Source: Archangium lipolyticum
GTDB lineage: Bacteria; Myxococcota; Myxococcia; Myxococcales; Myxococcaceae
Length of the DNA stretch: 64,000 nucleotides
Direction: 5' to 3'
NCBI RefSeq assembly: GCF_024623785.1
Contig: NZ_JANKBZ010000013.1
Span: forward strand, 62,001-126,000
Notes under the pieces: generated by a model
Seen by the model: the letters and a program-made list of their open reading frames with translations, nothing else
Database searches by the model: none
What the model was told of the DNA's origin: nothing
Program-made: the position numbers and the translations under genes
Shown here: in pieces, positions 41,102-52,749 of the stretch
Layout of the letters: the number at the start of each line of letters is the position of its first letter
How positions within the stretch are numbered: position 1 is the first letter of the stretch

Positions 41102-42052
41102 TCAGACGCGCCGCCCCGAGGAGCGTGTGCGCAAATTGTCGAGCAGCACGGCGAGTAACAGAATCACGCCACGAACCACGTATTGGTAGAATGCCTGGAT
41201 GTTCATCAGGTTCATCACGTTCTCCGCGATGCCCATGATGAGGACGCCCACCAACACGCCGGAGATGGCGGCCCGTCCACCGGCCAGCGACACGCCGCCC
41301 AGGACACAGGCGGAAATGACCGACAGCTCGAGCCCCTGCGCCGCGTTCGGCTGACCACTGGTGATGCGCGACGACAGCAGGATGCCCGCGACCGCGCAGA
41401 CCAGCCCCTGCAGGGTGAAGATCCAGATGCGAATGGTGCCTACATTGACGCCGGCCAGGCGCGAGGCATCCGGATTGCCACCGATGGCCAGCGTGTTGCG
41501 CCCGAAGACCGTGCGGTTCAGCACGAAGCCGAAGATCAGGAAGACGAGCACCATGACGATGATCGGCACCGGGACGCCGAACAGGTCCGTCTGCGCGATG
41601 TCGAAGTAGGCCGGGTCATCGACGCCGACGGCACGCCCATCGGAGGAGATCAACGCCAGACCGCGGACGATCTGCATCGTCGCCAGAGTCGTGATGAGGG
41701 CGTTGATCCGCAGCCGGGCGATCACCACGCCGTTGACGGCCCCGACCAACACACCGGCCAGCAGGGCGGCCAGGAGACCGAGACCGATGCTCTCGGTATG
41801 GTTGGAGACCATCACGGCGATCATGCCGGAGAAGGCCACCGTGGAGCCGACGGACAGGTCGAAGTCGCGCGAGGCCAGACAGAGCATCATCGTGCAGGCG
41901 ACGATGCCGATGGTCACCACCGATTGCAGCAGACCCAGGATGTTGCGCTGGGTCATGAAGTTGGGGACGGTGACGGAGACGATCGCGAGGGCCAGCAGGA
42001 ACAGGATGACCAGCCCCTGCTCCCCGAGCACGACGCGTTTCAGGCGATCCAT
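41102..42052 (-). CDS. araH: L-arabinose-type ABC transporter permease
   Basis: 316 aa from the ATG at 42052. Eight to ten membrane helices of the BPD_transp_2 (RbsC/AraH) family, with SRDFDLSVGSTVAFSGMIAV, the ATPase-contact region GRNTLAIGGNPDASRLAGV and VLGGVSLAGGRAAISGVLVG. It forms the membrane pore for the sugar bound by the 43636-44622 protein. Third gene of araF-araG-araH, 11 bp after araG. Sequence alone cannot exclude ribose, xylose or galactose, but the binding protein is strongly AraF-like. Confidence 0.88.
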   Translation of the reverse strand: MDRLKRVVLGEQGLVILFLLALAIVSVTVPNFMTQRNILGLLQSVVTIGIVACTMMLCLASRDFDLSVGSTVAFSGMIAVMVSNHTESIGLGLLAALLAGVLVGAVNGVVIARLRINALITTLATMQIVRGLALISSDGRAVGVDDPAYFDIAQTDLFGVPVPIIVMVLVFLIFGFVLNRTVFGRNTLAIGGNPDASRLAGVNVGTIRIWIFTLQGLVCAVAGILLSSRITSGQPNAAQGLELSVISACVLGGVSLAGGRAAISGVLVGVLIMGIAENVMNLMNIQAFYQYVVRGVILLLAVLLDNLRTRSSGRRV

Positions 42053-42063
42053 TTCAAATCCTC

Positions 42064-43563
42064 TCAAGCCACTGAGCGGTCGGGCAGTGCCGCCGCGAGG
42101 AGCTTCTCCTCGGAGAAGTCGGGTCTCTGGAATTCCGCGGCGATGCGGCCACCACACATCACGAGGACGCGGTCGCTGATGCCCATGACCTCGGGCAGCT
42201 CGCTCGAGATGACGATGAGGGCGATACCCTGCTCCGCCAGTCGGTAGAGCACGTCGTAGATCTCGCTCTTGGCGCCGACGTCGATGCCACGGGTCGGCTC
42301 GTCCACGATGAGGACCTTGACGCCGCGCTCGGCCAGCCAGCGGGACAGGATGACCTTCTGCTGGTTTCCGCCCGACAGGTTGACGATGTCCTGAAGGCGC
42401 GAAGGCGTCCGCACCCCCAGCCGTTTGATGAAGTCATTGGCCGTCTCGGCCTCCCGGCCCATGTTCAGCACGCCGAAGGGCGAGAAGTGGCGCCGGCAGG
42501 AGATGTTGATGTTCTCCTCCACCGACCGGCCCTGGAGGATGCCGTCCGTCTTCCGGTCCTCGGGGCAGAGGACCAGCCCGGCGCGCACCGCCTGCCGGGG
42601 ATGGTCGATCCGGACCGCCTTCCCGTCGATCCGCAGCTCGCCCGTATGGCGCCGATCCGCGCCGTAGAGGATGCGCGCCAGCTCGCTGCGTCCCGCGCCC
42701 ACCAGCCCGAAGAAGCCGAGGATCTCCCCGGCGCGGACCTCGAAGCTGGCCGGGGCCGCCAGACGCGGGCCGCTCACCCCGGAGACGGAGAGCCGCACCG
42801 GACCCTGCTGCCGGGGCCGCCAGCCCCAGATGTTCTGGATCTCCCGCCCCACCATCTCGCGCACCAGCGTCTCGCGCGTCAGGCCCTCCATGGTGTCGTG
42901 CCAGGCGACCCGCCTGCCGTCGCGCAGCACGACGCAGCCGTCGCACAGGCGGAAGAGCTCGTCCAGGCGGTGCGAGACGTAGAGGATGACCTTGCCCGCC
43001 TTTCGCAGGCGGTCGACCAGTCGGAAGAGGATCTCGCTCTCGTGCGCGGAGAGCGACGACGTGGGCTCGTCCAGGGCGATGACCGAGGCGTCGAAGATGG
43101 CGGCCTTGGCGATCTCCACCATCTGGCGGGCGCCGATCGACAGATCCACGACCTTGGCCTGGGGATCCACGTCGATGCCGATGTCGTGCAACACCTTGCC
43201 CACCTGGGCGAACAGCTCCCGGTAGTTGACGACGCCGAACCGCGACGGGATGCGGCCCAGCATGAGGTTCTCGGCCACCGTCAGCTCGGGGACGAGTTGC
43301 AACTCCTGATGCACGACCGTGACCCCGGCCGCGATCGACGCGCGCGTCGAGGAGAAACGGTGCGCCTTGCCAGCGATGAGGATCTCCCCGGAATCGGGAA
43401 CGTAGTCACCACCGAGGATCTTGATGAGCGTGGACTTGCCCGCGCCGTTCTCGCCCAGCAGGCCAATGACCCGCCCGGCCGGGACGGCGAAGCTCAGCTC
43501 ATGGAGGGCACGGACGCCGGGAAAATTCTTGGAGATGCTCTTGAATTCGAGAAAGGCCGTCAT
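42064..43563 (-). CDS. araG: L-arabinose-type ABC transporter ATP-binding protein (two NBDs)
   Basis: 499 aa from the ATG at 43563. The first nucleotide-binding domain has Walker [10 protein letters not shown] (about 37-45), [15 protein letters not shown] and Walker [10 protein letters not shown]. The second has a degenerate Walker [17 protein letters not shown], the signature [15 protein letters not shown] and [15 protein letters not shown]. This two-domain layout, with a degenerate second P-loop, is that of the RbsA/AraG/MglA family. It lies 72 bp after araF and 11 bp before araH. Confidence 0.92.
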
Positions 43564-43635
43564 GCGCCCTCGCCGCTCGCCGGACAGGAAACGTGACGCG
43601 GCGCCGGAGCACCGCGCCACGCTCCGGGACCACTC

Positions 43636-44622
43636 CTACTCGAGGCCCAGTTCCTTGCGGACGGCCTTGTACGTGTCGCGGGTGGCGAGCTTGCCGGAGG
43701 TGAGGATGAGCTTCTCCGGCTCCTTGTTGGCGGTCACCCAGTTGTACATGTTGATCGCGGTCTCATAGCCGTGACGCTTCGGCGAGATGATCACGCTGCC
43801 GTAGAAGCCGGTCGGCGAGGGCTTCTTGAACTCGTTGATGGCCGCGTCCGAGCCGCCGATGCCCACGGCCACCACGTCCCCGGCCTTGAGGCCGGCCGCC
43901 TCGGTCGCGCGGACGGCGCCGAGCACGGCCTCGTCGTTGAGGCCGAAGGCCACCCACTTCTTGATGGTGGGGTTCTTGTTGAGGACCACGGTGGCGGCGT
44001 TGAGCGCCGCCTCGGTGTCGGTCTTGGCCTGCGGCGCGTCGAAGACGTTCTGCGCCACGAAGCCATTCTGCTTCAGCACGGAGATGGCGCCCTCGACGCG
44101 GTCCTTCGCGGTGGGCAGCTGGTCGTAGGAGACGCGGATCGCACCGACCTCCTTCATGTTCCAGCCACGCGCCTTGATCTGATCCACGATGGCCTGGCCG
44201 ACGGCCTCGCCAATCTTGGTGGCCGAGATGCCCATGTGCGGCACGTCCTCGAGCGGCTTCCCCTTGCTGTTCACCAGGCGGTCATCGACCGTCATGAGCT
44301 TGAGCTGATTGGCCTTGGCGCGAGCCACCAGGCCCGGCCCCAGCTTGACGTCGGGGGTGCAGATGATGACACCCTGCGCGCCCTGCGCGCCCAGGTTGTC
44401 GAGGGCGGACAGGGCCTTCTCACCGTCCTCCGCGCCAATCTTGACGAGGGTGAAGCCCTTCTCCTTGGCCGCGATGTCCGCGAACTTCCACTCGTCCTGG
44501 AACCAGGGCTCCTCGGGCTGCTTGATCACGAAGCCAATCTTGACATCCGCGGCGGTGGCGGCGGCCGACACCACGAGCACGGCCAGGGCACCGGCCATGG
44601 CGAGATTCTTCCAAAGGCGCAT
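43636..44622 (-). CDS. araF: L-arabinose-binding periplasmic protein
   Basis: 328 aa with signal peptide 1-25 (ALAVLVVSAAATAAD). The mature protein follows E. coli AraF closely: GFVIKQPEEPWFQDEWKFAD, IICTPDVKLGPGLVARAK, TVDDRLVNSKGKPLEDVPHM, GFYGSVIISPKRHGY and MYNWVTANKEPEKL. These include the sugar-contact Lys, Glu, Trp, Asp, Arg and Asn positions of the family. It binds L-arabinose (or D-galactose/fucose) and delivers it to AraGH. It is the promoter-proximal gene, with two operator-like inverted repeats upstream. No araA/B/D or AraC-type gene is in view. Confidence 0.93.
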   Translation of the reverse strand: MRLWKNLAMAGALAVLVVSAAATAADVKIGFVIKQPEEPWFQDEWKFADIAAKEKGFTLVKIGAEDGEKALSALDNLGAQGAQGVIICTPDVKLGPGLVARAKANQLKLMTVDDRLVNSKGKPLEDVPHMGISATKIGEAVGQAIVDQIKARGWNMKEVGAIRVSYDQLPTAKDRVEGAISVLKQNGFVAQNVFDAPQAKTDTEAALNAATVVLNKNPTIKKWVAFGLNDEAVLGAVRATEAAGLKAGDVVAVGIGGSDAAINEFKKPSPTGFYGSVIISPKRHGYETAINMYNWVTANKEPEKLILTSGKLATRDTYKAVRKELGLE

Positions 44623-46660: not shown

Positions 46661-47833
46661 TCATCCCGCGTCGAGCGCCTGCTCAAGGTCCGCGATGAGA
46701 TCCTCGACCGCCTCCAGGCCCACGGAGTAGCGCAGCAACCCATCCCCGATTCCCCGCTGGAGCCGGACCTCGCGTGGCATGGCCGCGTGCGACATCATCG
46801 CCGGGTAGGACAGGATGCTCTCCACCGCGCCCAGGCTGACCGCCACCAGGGGGACCGAGACGCGATCGAGCACCTGTCTCGCGCGCTCCCCGGAGCCGAC
46901 GTCGAAGGACACGATGGCCCCGTAGCCCTGGGACTGCCGCTCGTGGATGGCCCGGCCGGGGTGCTCCGGCAACCCGGGGTAGTAGACCCGCGTCACCGAG
47001 GACTGACGGGTCAGCCAATCCGCGAGCGTCCGCGCGCTCCGCTCGGCGAACTCCATCCGGGCCAGGAGCGTCTTCATCCCGCGCATCAGCAGCCACGAGT
47101 CCTGGACTCCCAGCACGCCGCCCAGGGCGTTCTGGAGGTACTTGAGCTCCTGGCCCAGCTTCTCGTTGCCCACCACCGCCAGCCCGGCCAGCACGTCGCT
47201 GTGTCCCCCGAGGAACTTGGTCGCGCTGTGCAGCACGATGTCGATGCCCAGCTCCAGGGGACGCTGGAGACAGGGCGTCATGAAGGTGTTGTCCAGCATC
47301 GTCAGCAGGCCCTGCTTCCGGGCCCACTCCGCCACCGCGGCGATGTCGGTGATCTTCAGGGTCGGGTTGGACGGAGTCTCCAGGAACACCGCCCGCGTGT
47401 TCGGCTGGCGCGCGGCCTCGAGCCTGTCCAGGTCCGTCGTATCGACGAAGGTCGTCTCGATGCCCATCCGTCCGAGGATGGCCGTCAGCAGCCGGTACGT
47501 CCCGCCATACACGTCCTCGGAGCAGATGACGTGGTCGCCCTTGGAGAGCAGCATGAAGGCGCAGGAGATCGCCGCCATCCCCGAGGAGAAGGCGAAGCCC
47601 CGGACACCGCCCTCCAGCTCGGCGATGGTGTCCTCGAGCGCCTGGCGGGTCGGGTTGCCGGAGCGGGTGTAGTCGTACTCCGGAGGGTTCTCGAGCGAGG
47701 CGTGGTGGAAGGTGGAGGCCTGGTACAGCGGGATGCTGGAAGCGCCCGTGCGCGGATCCACCCCCGAGGCGGAGTGGAGTACCCGGGTGGCCAGCTTCTG
47801 GCGGGGACGAGGGGTCTCTTTGAGTTGGATCAT
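46661..47833 (-). CDS. metC: Trans-sulfuration PLP enzyme, cystathionine beta-lyase-type
   Basis: 390 aa of the Cys/Met-metabolism PLP family. The PLP lysine is in LHSATKFLGGHSDVLAG; YDYTRSGNPTRQALEDTIAE, FSSGMAAI, ETPSNPTLKITD and SLGAVESILSYPAMMSHA are the other family blocks. As the third gene after metL and the gamma-synthase, it most likely cleaves cystathionine to homocysteine, giving a complete route. The family is promiscuous, and a cystathionine gamma-lyase role cannot be excluded by motif. It starts 7 bp after the gamma-synthase stop. Confidence 0.85.
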   Translation of the reverse strand: MIQLKETPRPRQKLATRVLHSASGVDPRTGASSIPLYQASTFHHASLENPPEYDYTRSGNPTRQALEDTIAELEGGVRGFAFSSGMAAISCAFMLLSKGDHVICSEDVYGGTYRLLTAILGRMGIETTFVDTTDLDRLEAARQPNTRAVFLETPSNPTLKITDIAAVAEWARKQGLLTMLDNTFMTPCLQRPLELGIDIVLHSATKFLGGHSDVLAGLAVVGNEKLGQELKYLQNALGGVLGVQDSWLLMRGMKTLLARMEFAERSARTLADWLTRQSSVTRVYYPGLPEHPGRAIHERQSQGYGAIVSFDVGSGERARQVLDRVSVPLVAVSLGAVESILSYPAMMSHAAMPREVRLQRGIGDGLLRYSVGLEAVEDLIADLEQALDAG

Positions 47834-47840
47834 GGTTGCC

Positions 47841-49019
47841 TCACCGGGTACAGGCGCCGCCGTCGACCTCCCGGCGGGCCGCGTCGAGTGACTGGGACAG
47901 GTCGGAGATCAGGTCGTCCACGTGCTCGATTCCCACCGAGTACCGGAGCAGCCGGTCATCCACGCCCACGCGCCGGCGCAGCTCCTCCGGAATGTCCGCG
48001 TGGGTCTGCACCGAGGGATAGGTCATCAGGGACTCCACCCCGCCGAGGCTCTCCGCGAAGGCGATCAGCCGGACGTGGCGCAGGAGCGGCTCGACGAGGC
48101 GGGCGTCCTTCAACTTGAAGGAGAAGATGCCCGTGTTCCCCGAGGCCTGCCGCTTCTGGAGCGCGTAACCCGGATGGCTCTCGAGGCCCGGGTGGAAGAC
48201 GCTCTCGACGAGCGGATGCGCCGCCAGCCAGGTGGCGATGCGGAGGGCGTTCTCCTGGTGGCGCTCCATCCTCAGCGCCAGCGTCTTCATCCCGCGCATG
48301 AGCAGCCAGCAGTCCTGCGGCCCCAGCACGGCCCCGATGGAGTTGTGCAGGAAGGCGATCTGCTCGGACAGCGCCTTGACCCGCGTCACCACGAGCCCCG
48401 CCAGCACGTCGTTGTGTCCACCCAGGTACTTGGTGGCGCTGTGGACGACGATGTCCGCTCCCAGCTCGATGGGACGCTGGAAGAAGGGGGTCATCAGCGT
48501 GTTGTCCACGATGGAGGTCAGCTCGCGCGCCCTGGCCCAGCGGCAGACCTTGTCGAGGTCCGTGAGCCGCATCAGCGGGTTGCTGGGCGTTTCGATCAAC
48601 ACCGCCTTCGTCTGGGGCCGGAGGTTCGCCTGGAGCTCGTCCAGGTCATTGGTGTCGACGTAGGTCGCGGAGATTCCGTAGCGGGACAGCACCTTCTCCA
48701 GCAGCCGGTACGTTCCCCCATACAGGTCGTGCGAGACGAGCAGGTGCGAGCCCTGGCCGAACAGGGAGAAGACGAGCTGGAGTGCCGCCATGCCCGAGCT
48801 ACAGGCGAAGCCGGCGTCCCCCGACTCGAGCCGGGCGATCGCCTCCTCCAGGACGGCCCGCGTGGGGCTCTTCGTCCGCGAGTAGTCGAACCCCGTGCTC
48901 TGCCCCAGGCGGGGATGCCGGAAGGCGGTGGCGTGATGGACGGGGACGCTGACCGCGCCCGTCACCGAGTCTGAAACGGAACCAATCTGCGCCAGCTGAC
49001 TTTCGATCTTCATGTTCAT
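47841..49019 (-). CDS. metI: Cystathionine gamma-synthase / O-acylhomoserine-dependent, MetI-like
   Basis: 392 aa. It joins activated homoserine with cysteine to make cystathionine. The sequence follows Bacillus MetI block by block: LAQIGSVSDSVTGAVSVPVH, STGFDYSRTKSPTRAVLEEA, VHSATKYLGGHNDVLAGLVV (PLP lysine), SLGGVESLMTYPSVQTHADI and LLRYSVGIEHVDDLI. It overlaps the metL stop by 4 bp and precedes metC by 7 bp. No homoserine acyltransferase (metA/metX) is in the operon, so that step is encoded elsewhere. The two PLP enzymes are paralogues but well diverged. Confidence 0.88.
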   Translation of the reverse strand: MNMKIESQLAQIGSVSDSVTGAVSVPVHHATAFRHPRLGQSTGFDYSRTKSPTRAVLEEAIARLESGDAGFACSSGMAALQLVFSLFGQGSHLLVSHDLYGGTYRLLEKVLSRYGISATYVDTNDLDELQANLRPQTKAVLIETPSNPLMRLTDLDKVCRWARARELTSIVDNTLMTPFFQRPIELGADIVVHSATKYLGGHNDVLAGLVVTRVKALSEQIAFLHNSIGAVLGPQDCWLLMRGMKTLALRMERHQENALRIATWLAAHPLVESVFHPGLESHPGYALQKRQASGNTGIFSFKLKDARLVEPLLRHVRLIAFAESLGGVESLMTYPSVQTHADIPEELRRRVGVDDRLLRYSVGIEHVDDLISDLSQSLDAARREVDGGACTR

Positions 49020-51535: not shown

Positions 51536-51921
51536 GGATGTCTTCCTTTCGGCGAACTGCGTGGGTCGGAGAGCCGGGGCCCACGGCGGAAGGCAGACGA
51601 TCGAGGGGAGCTCGGGACGTAGCCGTGCCGCGGGGCGCTGTTCAGGTCGGAAACCCGGGCACCCGCGGCTCTTCGGTACGAGAGGTCAGCTCAGAAACGG
51701 CTGGAAACCCATCCTCCCGCGAGCGCGCGCATGCCCGGGCCACGCATGAGCATGGCCTCCATGGACATCGGCATTCGGGTGACAGGACAGGACAAGAGAA
51801 TCTCCAGACGTGTGGCAGGAGGTAACAACAAGCCCCGCATGCTGTCAATGCCGTGATTCGTGACTTTCGCGTAGCCAACAGCGATGGGGCCCGGCTGCGA
51901 CAGCGGTTACGCTGTCTCCCG
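51536..51921. promoter_or_regulatory. Leader and promoter region of the methionine operon
   Basis: This 386-bp gap lies between divergent metL and the unknown gene at 51922. Leftward, a perfect -35 TTGACA (51848-51843) has a poor -10 (TTACCT, 51825-51820) at 17-bp spacing. A Met-rich short ORF (51774-51691) follows, then a hairpin CCCGCGG/CCGCGGG (51662-51668 with 51628-51634) and a weaker stem CCCACG/CGTGGG (51580-51585 with 51560-51565). No T-run follows either stem. No known SAM riboswitch core was recognised. Confidence 0.45.
51691..51774 (-). CDS. Putative Met-rich leader peptide of the methionine operon
   Basis: 27 codons from an ATG at 51774 to a TGA at 51691. The sequence MPMSMEAMLMRGPGMRALAG has six Met in the first 15 residues, all in one frame, and is followed by GWVSSRF. 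The only good ribosome binding site (GGAGG) lies inside, 8 nt before the fifth Met (51747), so the translated peptide may be just the last 18 residues. Met-codon stalling would be a logical sensor for this operon. Caution: CATG repeats are palindromic, so Met codons also occur on the other strand. Confidence 0.35.
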   Translation of the reverse strand: MPMSMEAMLMRGPGMRALAGGWVSSRF

Positions 51922-52749
51922 ATGCCTACGCACTCCACCATCCAGGTCCGGTTCATCGACGCGAACACGGGACAGTCGCTCGGCGAGACGGCGATGCCCG
52001 CCGATAAGCTGCCCCCGAGCTTCGACGACGTCGCTGCCCTTCAGATCGACGACAAGTCATACGAGGTCGTCTCCGCCGAGCCCAGGACGGCCGCCGAGTT
52101 CCGCGAGACGGGAACCGTGCGGCTCATGCTCCGGGCCAAGAGCCTCCCGGCCACCGTGAATCCGCGCGACATCCTCTACTCCCTGCCTACCCTCTGCGAT
52201 CCGATTCCCGCCATGGAAGAGGGCTCGACGAAGCAGGGCCTGAACGTGCTCGAGCTGCACGAGGACGACTGGCGGCAGATCGAGTTCGTGGCGCTCACGC
52301 TCGAGTCCTCCGCCGAGATCGACCTGCGGGCCGTCGCGCGGATCCACAACAAGCACTTCAAGGGTGCCGGCTTCGACGCCATCCACATCCGCAAGGCAGT
52401 GCCCTCTCCGCTGGAGGGCACCTGGCTCACCCTGGATGAGCTGCGGAGCACGCTGGGCCCGTCCGCGTCGTGGTTCGACGGCCTCTCGTTCCAGGGCGCG
52501 CCGGGGCTGATCGCGGGGGGCTTCGCCGTGAAGTTGGCCTCGGGGCTCATGCTGTACGGCACGCAACGGGGCGGAAGGATCAGCGTCCTGGCCCTGCGCG
52601 GCAGGGAGAGCACCACGGACGTCGAGGGGGATGCCCGCCTGCTGGCCTCGATCGCCACCCGGAGCCAGCTGCTGCTCATCGACTGGTGCCGCGTGGAGCA
52701 GCTCCCGCCCGTCGCCCAACACATCCGGGATTGGCTGTCCGGGCGCTAA
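51922..52749 (+). CDS. Unknown cytoplasmic protein
   Basis: 275 aa from the ATG at 51922; the frame is open further upstream to 51853, but those codons lack a ribosome binding site. It was not recognised. It has no signal peptide or membrane helix. The N-terminal 50 residues form a beta-rich segment (VRFIDANTGQSLGETAMPAD). The centre contains DDWRQIEFVALTLESSAEID and RIHNKHFKGAGFDAIHIRKA; the C-terminus has ISVLALRGRESTTDVEGDAR and LLIDWCRVEQLP. The even hydrophobic pattern suggests one or two alpha/beta domains. It stands alone, divergent from metL and 43 bp before the Smr gene. Confidence 0.65.
   Translation: MPTHSTIQVRFIDANTGQSLGETAMPADKLPPSFDDVAALQIDDKSYEVVSAEPRTAAEFRETGTVRLMLRAKSLPATVNPRDILYSLPTLCDPIPAMEEGSTKQGLNVLELHEDDWRQIEFVALTLESSAEIDLRAVARIHNKHFKGAGFDAIHIRKAVPSPLEGTWLTLDELRSTLGPSASWFDGLSFQGAPGLIAGGFAVKLASGLMLYGTQRGGRISVLALRGRESTTDVEGDARLLASIATRSQLLLIDWCRVEQLPPVAQHIRDWLSGR

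Follow-up and report, generated by a model that had tools for sequence, protein, structure and literature searches.

What does a short, methionine-rich reading frame do directly ahead of a methionine operon? The question is raised by the minus strand of the window, i.e. the whole 64,000-nucleotide stretch of Archangium lipolyticum DNA analyzed here, in which an earlier note had pointed out such a frame at 51691-51774, upstream of metL-metI-metC, and had proposed a methionine attenuator or stalling element. The frame (translated as MPMSMEAMLMRGPGMRALAGGWVSSRF*, with Met at positions 1, 3, 5, 8, 10 and 15) is real, and it is the sole case among 1,153 stop-free ATG starts, counted over both strands of the whole window, with six or more Met in 15 codons. 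Relative to the proteins of the window, Met is enriched 6-8 fold in the Met leaders treated here. The operon consists of metL (AK-HSD) followed by two PLP enzymes of the MetB/MetC type, and the order metL-metB-metC is found in all six Archangium genomes. The surroundings include a sugar-type ABC transporter cluster at 41102-44622 on the minus strand (binding protein, ATPase and permease, named by eye from the translations), and a search for phage matches found none.

The ATG at 51774, which had been taken as the start, proved to be the wrong one. The conserved start is an in-frame TTG seven codons upstream, at 51795, and the leader ORF is for this reason 34 aa long; in this numbering further Met follow the control codons at positions 17 and 22. 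The start codon is TTG in two and GTG in four of the six Archangium genomes, and a GGAG located six bases before it is kept in all of them, contrary to the claim that the best ribosome-binding site lies inside the ORF. A perfect TTGACA placed to transcribe the leader is present, as had been stated, and is kept in 6/6 Archangium genomes, while the sigma-70 consensus scan called no promoter in the window leader, the -10-like TTACCT being weak. Transcription would be expected to start near 51813. The promoter region is shared with a divergent gene (51922-52749, plus strand) that has no Pfam or NCBIfam match. The features are collected in Table 1.

Table 1. Leader elements and downstream genes, in window positions.
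Feature	Position	Strand	Basis
-35 element TTGACA, leader promoter	51843..51848	-	sequence; 6/6 Archangium; 53 nt before TTG
-10-like hexamer TTACCT, 17-nt spacer	51820..51825	-	assigned by eye; weak match
CTGGAGA, leader ribosome-binding site	51801..51807	-	conserved in 6/6 Archangium
Leader ORF, TTG start, 34 aa	51691..51795	-	translation; same frame in 6 Archangium genomes and 4 of other genera
Leader peptide, M S C P V T R M P M S M E A M L M R G P G M R A L A G G W V S S R F	51691..51795	-	
Control Met codons 8, 10, 12, 15	51751..51774	-	1:2 pairing in mask folding
8-bp hairpin GGCCATGC-TCAT-GCGTGGCC inside ORF	51738..51757	-	kept in 10/10 exact-core genomes
Arm 1, GGCCCGGGCATGCGCG	51726..51741	-	alignment, mask folding
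GCCGCGGG, overlaps arm 2, pairs with arm 3	51662-51669	-	alignment, mask folding
Arm 2, CGCGGGTGCCCGGG, complementary to arm 1 (anti-structure)	51654..51667	-	alignment, mask folding
Arm 3, CCCCGCGGC; 2:3 forms the competing hairpin, without U-run	51627..51635	-	sequence, mask folding
metL ribosome-binding site AAGGAAG, can pair with upstream CUUUCG/CUUCC stretch	51542..51548	-	folding
metL, bifunctional aspartokinase/homoserine dehydrogenase, 839 aa	49016..51535	-	NCBIfam PRK09436, 745 bits (cut-off 726)
PLP enzyme, cystathionine gamma-synthase type (metB/metI)	47841..49019	-	best NCBIfam PRK08247, 517 bits, under cut-off 585
PLP enzyme, cystathionine beta-lyase type (metC)	46661..47833	-	best NCBIfam PRK08064, 587 bits, under cut-off 627

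Alignment of the six Archangium leaders revealed that the TTGACA, the ribosome-binding site, the TTG/GTG start, the frame and all Met codons are kept in each of them, so that the loss of frame or Met codons among close relatives, which would have spoken against the original proposal, is not seen. Altogether 57 leader bases are identical in the six genomes, and the flanks have diverged on either side of the block containing the Met codons. Toward the C terminus the peptide is not conserved; the position of the stop varies, and in two genomes it comes directly after MRAFA. Beyond the genus, the frame and the Met-containing core reappear in four genomes of three other genera (G001, G045, G081 and G082), which a 176-base leader query identified as clear relatives about 2.7 kb ahead of metL, the order downstream being leader, then metY-metX-metL in 4/4. 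Family models, applied in G001 only, gave 639 bits for metY (cut-off 495) and 246 bits for metX, which is below the cut-off of 500. In a scan allowing up to 3 mismatches, the exact 24-nt core was found in 10 out of 145 genomes of the order, namely the six Archangium and these four, and always ahead of a met operon; a profile of the leader peptide recovered the same 10 out of 147 genomes of the class at E 1.7e-12 or better, with the next match at 1e-3. A more distant window-type leader was recognized by eye in G084. Weak DNA matches in G044 and G083 apparently lie inside genes, and a three-mismatch core match in G051 is not a leader.

The peptides of the four other-genus relatives end in Cys-rich tails (GECCPSCCR, GECCCGCRI, GECCRRCC and GECCRCC in G001, G045, G081 and G082, respectively), and that of G084 has a single Cys at its end. 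Met-richness as such was rejected as the defining trait of this leader type, because G082 retains only two internal Met and core and frame stay. The same richness could have a trivial explanation, namely that CATG palindromes produce it in an intergenic stretch which is conserved but has no function. The palindromes had been listed as a weak point, and they do produce a Met-rich frame on the opposite strand as well (51731-51856, plus). Nevertheless, the promoter, start codon and arms, all of them conserved, belong to the minus strand, as do the genes downstream, the leader is conserved across genera with rearranged operons, the A-type leaders described below are built on a different sequence, and a version with Cys exists, all of which makes a non-functional stretch barely credible.

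Taken together, the sequences and folding models make it probable that the leader is a ribosome-mediated attenuator which reads the supply of charged methionyl-tRNA. RNA polymerase would start just downstream of the TTGACA, and a ribosome would follow on the short ORF. When methionine is short, this ribosome would wait at one of the Met codons that are clustered directly upstream of arm 1, leaving the in-ORF arm free to pair with its downstream partner, so that the competing hairpin would be blocked and the met operon expressed. When methionine is plentiful, the ribosome would cover arm 1, the downstream partner would pair with the next arm and transcription would be cut off; in the window copy, metL translation is possibly the step cut off instead. 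The same plan would be reused with Met codons ahead of metY, metX and metL-B-C, and with Cys codons ahead of sulfate-uptake genes. What the computations establish directly is the conservation, the reading frame, the complementarity of the arms, the agreement between control codon and pathway, and where most control codons lie relative to the switch; the stalling, the sensing of charged tRNA and the termination are deduced.

Pairing of the arms was modeled by masking an assumed ribosome footprint (P-site -14 to +16) and folding the remaining RNA. Using the whole leader, 1:2 pairing in the six Archangium leaders was 0.93-1.00 with Met 8, 10, 12 or 15 in the A site (6/6) and 0 at P-site codons 16-26 (6/6); in two of the leaders it formed again toward the end of the ORF. 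With the P site at codon 16, the rival 2:3 helix reached 0.95 or more in three leaders, and 0.87, 0.55 and 0.06 (L007) in the others. Before transcription reaches the third arm, the switch behaves alike in all 11 window-type leaders; with 50 further bases the pairing at the Met codons becomes uneven in several, e.g. 0.00, 0.95, 0.00 and 0.28 for Met 8, 10, 12 and 15 in G001. In the mask model, arm 1 of most leaders is also freed by a ribosome standing anywhere upstream of the Met codons.

How the signal would be passed on is less clear-cut in the window copy. It had been remarked that its hairpins lack U-runs; this is correct, as neither the sequence nor a terminator scan yielded a terminator hairpin with a U-run there. 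Because of this, the off-step of the window copy, be it Rho-dependent, intrinsic or translational, is one that we can only infer. The chances are about even that the same sensor acts here through Rho-dependent termination or metL translation rather than through an intrinsic terminator. Such a route would fit the missing U-run after 2:3 and the ability of the metL ribosome-binding site to pair upstream in folded leaders; against it, the accessibility predicted for the metL site in six leaders is not governed by where the ribosome stands, and the paralogs have U-rich tails (metY tails such as CUUCGUCGUUUC, and UUUU in 4/5 Archangium cys leaders). Control of metL specifically by sequestration of its ribosome-binding site was rejected, being foldable but giving no consistent response to ribosome position in these six leaders. 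We describe the window copy as resembling a classical attenuator in its working, and as related to copies that match the type more closely.

Such copies were found ahead of metY. At a threshold of E 1e-120 or better, metY was present in 46 out of 96 genomes of the family, and the upstream region was inspected in all 46. Three regions were cut by a contig end (G016, G022 and G051), with A-type leaders located on another contig in G016 and G022. Out of the 43 readable ones, 37 had a Met-containing leader, two had a SAM-I/IV riboswitch instead and four had neither (G085, G089, G092 and G094). Window-type leaders account for five of the 37 (G001, G045, G081, G082 and G084), and the remaining 32, the A type, extend the conservation seen around the window copy to similar leaders ahead of metY. 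They were defined by an ATG 37-39 nt after TTGAC[AT] and by two or more internal Met; TTGAC[AT] lies 37-41 nt before the leader start in the metY, metX and cys copies that were read. Six genera carry A-type leaders, with 32 of their 33 readable genomes passing the filter and a riboswitch in the exception, G041. As genera share ancestry, these counts are not independent events. The 32 leaders comprise 20 distinct peptides. The arms GGTGGGC / GAGCCCA / GGTGGGCT occurred in fixed order in 56/96 family genomes, as compared to 0/96 for the backwards control pattern. In the sister genomes of G026 that were read, a terminator hairpin is present that its metY leader (L172) lacks, by assembly collapse or real deletion.

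Twelve metY leaders (L152-L157, L160, L162, L164, L166, L173 and L177) could be aligned without gaps. The encoded amino acid varies at 13 of their 23 codons, with the internal ATG11 and ATG13 and the arm GGT GGG being invariant. Variable sites number 10, 9 and 6 at codon positions 1, 2 and 3, respectively; since positions 1 and 2 vary more than 3, ordinary protein-type selection is not supported. Another invariant (12/12, in genera g1, g6 and g7) is the Arg codon CGA at position 10, which immediately precedes the Met pair and may act as a slow codon that times the ribosome.

Other arrangements ahead of metY were also encountered. In genus g26, two upstream regions (L074 and L075) hold non-Met ORFs and a strong GCCTCCG...CGGAGGC hairpin, and a third (L080) a 10-bp hairpin over an ATG; none of the three gave an Rfam match. 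Family f3, another family of the order, scanned in 16 of its 23 metY genomes, had no riboswitch, and by eye no leader either, since the five Met-containing ORFs listed there lie far upstream and not behind a TTGACA. Eight f3 loci (L188-L191, L197 and L199-L201) instead have a TTGACA followed directly by a GGAC-GTCC-like stretch (AGGAC...GTCC exact in 3/8), perhaps a repressor site in place of the leader.

The two riboswitches (RF01725; 298-418 of L158 in G080 and 307-422 of L159 in G041) sit at the very place of the metY leader, and constitute a natural swap of sensor type. This swap, together with the 57 fully identical bases in six genomes, could be taken to mean that the leader itself is a structured, riboswitch-like RNA binding SAM or Met, in which the reading frame is incidental. 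We consider this very unlikely. The A-type leaders keep frame, start and stop despite a length that varies from 22 to 25 codons, and the control codons track the pathway, as described below for cysteine. Rfam at the gathering score gave 0 matches in the window, and a SAM riboswitch was rejected there; among 14 loci scanned only L158 and L159, both without a leader, matched the SAM aptamer, and the leader-bearing loci among the 14 had no Rfam match.

Attenuation by codon reading was also modeled in the A type, using 31 of the 32 leaders (G026 was dropped, its hairpin being missing from the assembly). Before the last arm is made, antiterminator pairing averaged 0.80 over 82 cells with Met in the A site versus 0.11 over 376 later codons, and placing the first internal Met in the A site gave 0.96 or more in 31/31. 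Of the M.M pair, the second Met often falls shortly past the predicted switch. Most codons upstream of the Met have the same effect as Met itself, and in many leaders the pairing comes back close to the stop codon. With all arms at equilibrium, the antiterminator exceeded 0.5 at some ribosome position in only 10/31, and equilibrium folding was rejected as proof of antitermination in the A type, 3:4 winning in most.

The A-type plan is not confined to metY. One genus of 27 genomes, presumably Myxococcus, matches the A-type arm pattern throughout, and 23 of its genomes lack metY at the threshold. Ten of these 23 were examined; each had a leader carrying two or more internal Met, and metY was adjacent in none. 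The gene downstream is instead metX-like in the three cases inspected (54-55% identical to G001 metX), although the one scored by family model reached 214 bits, below the cut-off of 500.

A second match to the arm pattern, found in seven of the 27 genomes, marks a paralogous leader with HACCCC, i.e. four Cys codons, in 5/7 read. Cys is enriched 25 fold in the Cys leaders of this genus relative to the proteins of the window. In one genome, the leader was seen to precede a porin (PF07396, 92.6 bits), a sulfate-binding protein (496 bits) and CysT (408 bits). Ahead of sulfate-transport genes the leader thus uses Cys codons, so that its control codon matches the pathway. The core of this Cys-codon paralog, TGTTGCTGCTGT...GGTGGGC, is present in 27/27 genomes of the genus; the same loose pattern has other sites in 12 genomes outside it, and the backwards control matches in 6. 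In Archangium, the sulfate-binding gene was found at threshold in 5/6 genomes, each time with a leader containing both Met and Cys codons (5/5; HRMFCRC or HMKVCC), and TTTT follows the hairpin in 4/5. The stem has changed on both sides: G006 pairs AACCCACC with GGTGGGTT, and G003 pairs AGCCCACC with GGTGGGCT.

In the five Cys leaders, folded before the last arm only, antiterminator pairing drops right after the fourth and last Cys (5/5), and individual Cys codons show dips to 0.10 (L244) and 0.67 (L247). With all arms, the antiterminator rose above 0.5 in one of the five, the highest value being 0.54 and not at a Cys codon. As 3:4 wins at equilibrium in most A-type leaders, and as 4/5 Cys leaders stay at or below 0.5, the switch must be kinetic. 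In the three of five Archangium sulfate leaders that were folded, the switch is predicted to lie no later than the first Cys, too early for the Cys codons but after the Met (3/3).

The Cys leaders also bear on the stalling element that had been proposed next to an attenuator. On this view the ribosome would be stalled by the EAMxMRGPGxR peptide, and not by the codons, when Met, SAM or some other signal is sensed. EAM.MRGPG.R is indeed invariant in the 10 exact-core window-type leaders, in four genera, and their RGPG motif recalls the RAPP/RAGP arrest motifs. On the other hand, the invariant RGPG codons double as RNA arm 1, the metY, metX and cys leaders conserve the peptide no further than the control codons and the arm, and the control codons become Cys ahead of sulfate genes, which renders nascent-peptide arrest distinctly unlikely. 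Of the two parts of the original proposal, attenuation by codon sensing is thus favored over a peptide-specific stall, because the two internal Met codons of the 12 gap-free metY leaders are invariant while 13/23 codons vary and because Cys takes over ahead of sulfate-uptake genes.

Codon sensing could extend further in the leaders with Cys-rich tails. The folds could be read as a two-window sulfur sensor, in which a ribosome waiting either at early Met codons or at late Cys codons close to the stop would re-open the anti-structure as long as the third arm is not yet made, and one leader would report a shortage of either Met or Cys; the family would then be an interchangeable attenuator body with Met/Cys control codons swapped between sulfur genes, and Archangium would have dropped the Cys window when its operon became metL-B-C. 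The anti-structure returns at the terminal Cys codons in G001, G082 and G084, and at the last Cys only in G045, in the shorter transcript alone; G081 does not have this placement. As the late window vanishes with 50 more bases, and is also seen in Archangium leaders without Cys codons there, we regard this extension as rather unlikely.

Bacterial methionine control is usually ascribed to SAM riboswitches, T-boxes or repressors. A Met-codon leader attenuator as described here was not found in the accessible parts of the open-access literature, subscription papers being outside the scope: as far as the available portions go, a broad terminator survey has no Met leader (PMC2965389), methionine is absent from the main text of an attenuation theory paper (PMC1183508), and a comparative study of Actinobacteria states that it saw no conserved RNA structure ahead of methionine operons (PMC1262725). 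In the same literature, Cys-run leaders ahead of cys operons are already known from Actinobacteria, and the Met-codon attenuator is apparently new. It poses a testable puzzle, as the amino acid sensed is also needed to start the leader. Two relatives in which a riboswitch stands in for the leader, and a single RNA body on which Met codons have been exchanged for Cys codons, amount to a natural experiment on the retuning of attenuators, and the predicted myxobacterial regulon would include metY, metX, metL-B-C and sulfate uptake.

Several known systems resemble the leader in part. Its likeness to arrest-peptide regulators, e.g. TnaC, SecM and those of the RAPP type, is that translation of a leader peptide would control the downstream gene. 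In those the peptide sequence matters, whereas A-type leaders vary outside control codons and arm; peptide conservation is present only in the window type, where the same bases form arm 1. In G041 and G080 the position of the leader ahead of metY is occupied by the SAM-I/IV riboswitch, but this is a ligand-binding RNA, matched neither in the window nor in the leader-bearing loci scanned. Mycobacterial polycysteine leaders, reportedly leaderless judging by the title of Canestrari 2020, are likewise short ORFs with Cys runs ahead of sulfur-assimilation genes. The paralog in L244-L248 is of this kind, while the window copy, with one Cys and met genes, is not. In the part of PMC1262725 that describes Cys-run leader ORFs ahead of actinobacterial (mycobacterial) cys operons, these are reported to lack a conserved terminator hairpin, unlike the conserved hairpin and in-ORF arm found here. 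A Met version, moreover, exists here.

Closest in plan are the classical ribosome-mediated amino-acid attenuators, i.e. the trp, his, leu, ilv, thr and phe leaders. As in the scheme for trp attenuation (PMC1183508, in the portion available), a short ORF with control codons precedes its cognate operon, and the arms are mutually exclusive, one of them lying in the ORF. The leader has clustered codons for the amino acid of its operon, and in mask folding it has two mutually exclusive structures that switch at the control codons. It differs in that the window copy has no U-run, that the amino acid sensed, methionine, is also the initiator, that the metY, metX and cys copies begin some 10 nt past a -10 assigned by eye, and that the in-ORF arm pairs directly with the 5' half of the terminator.
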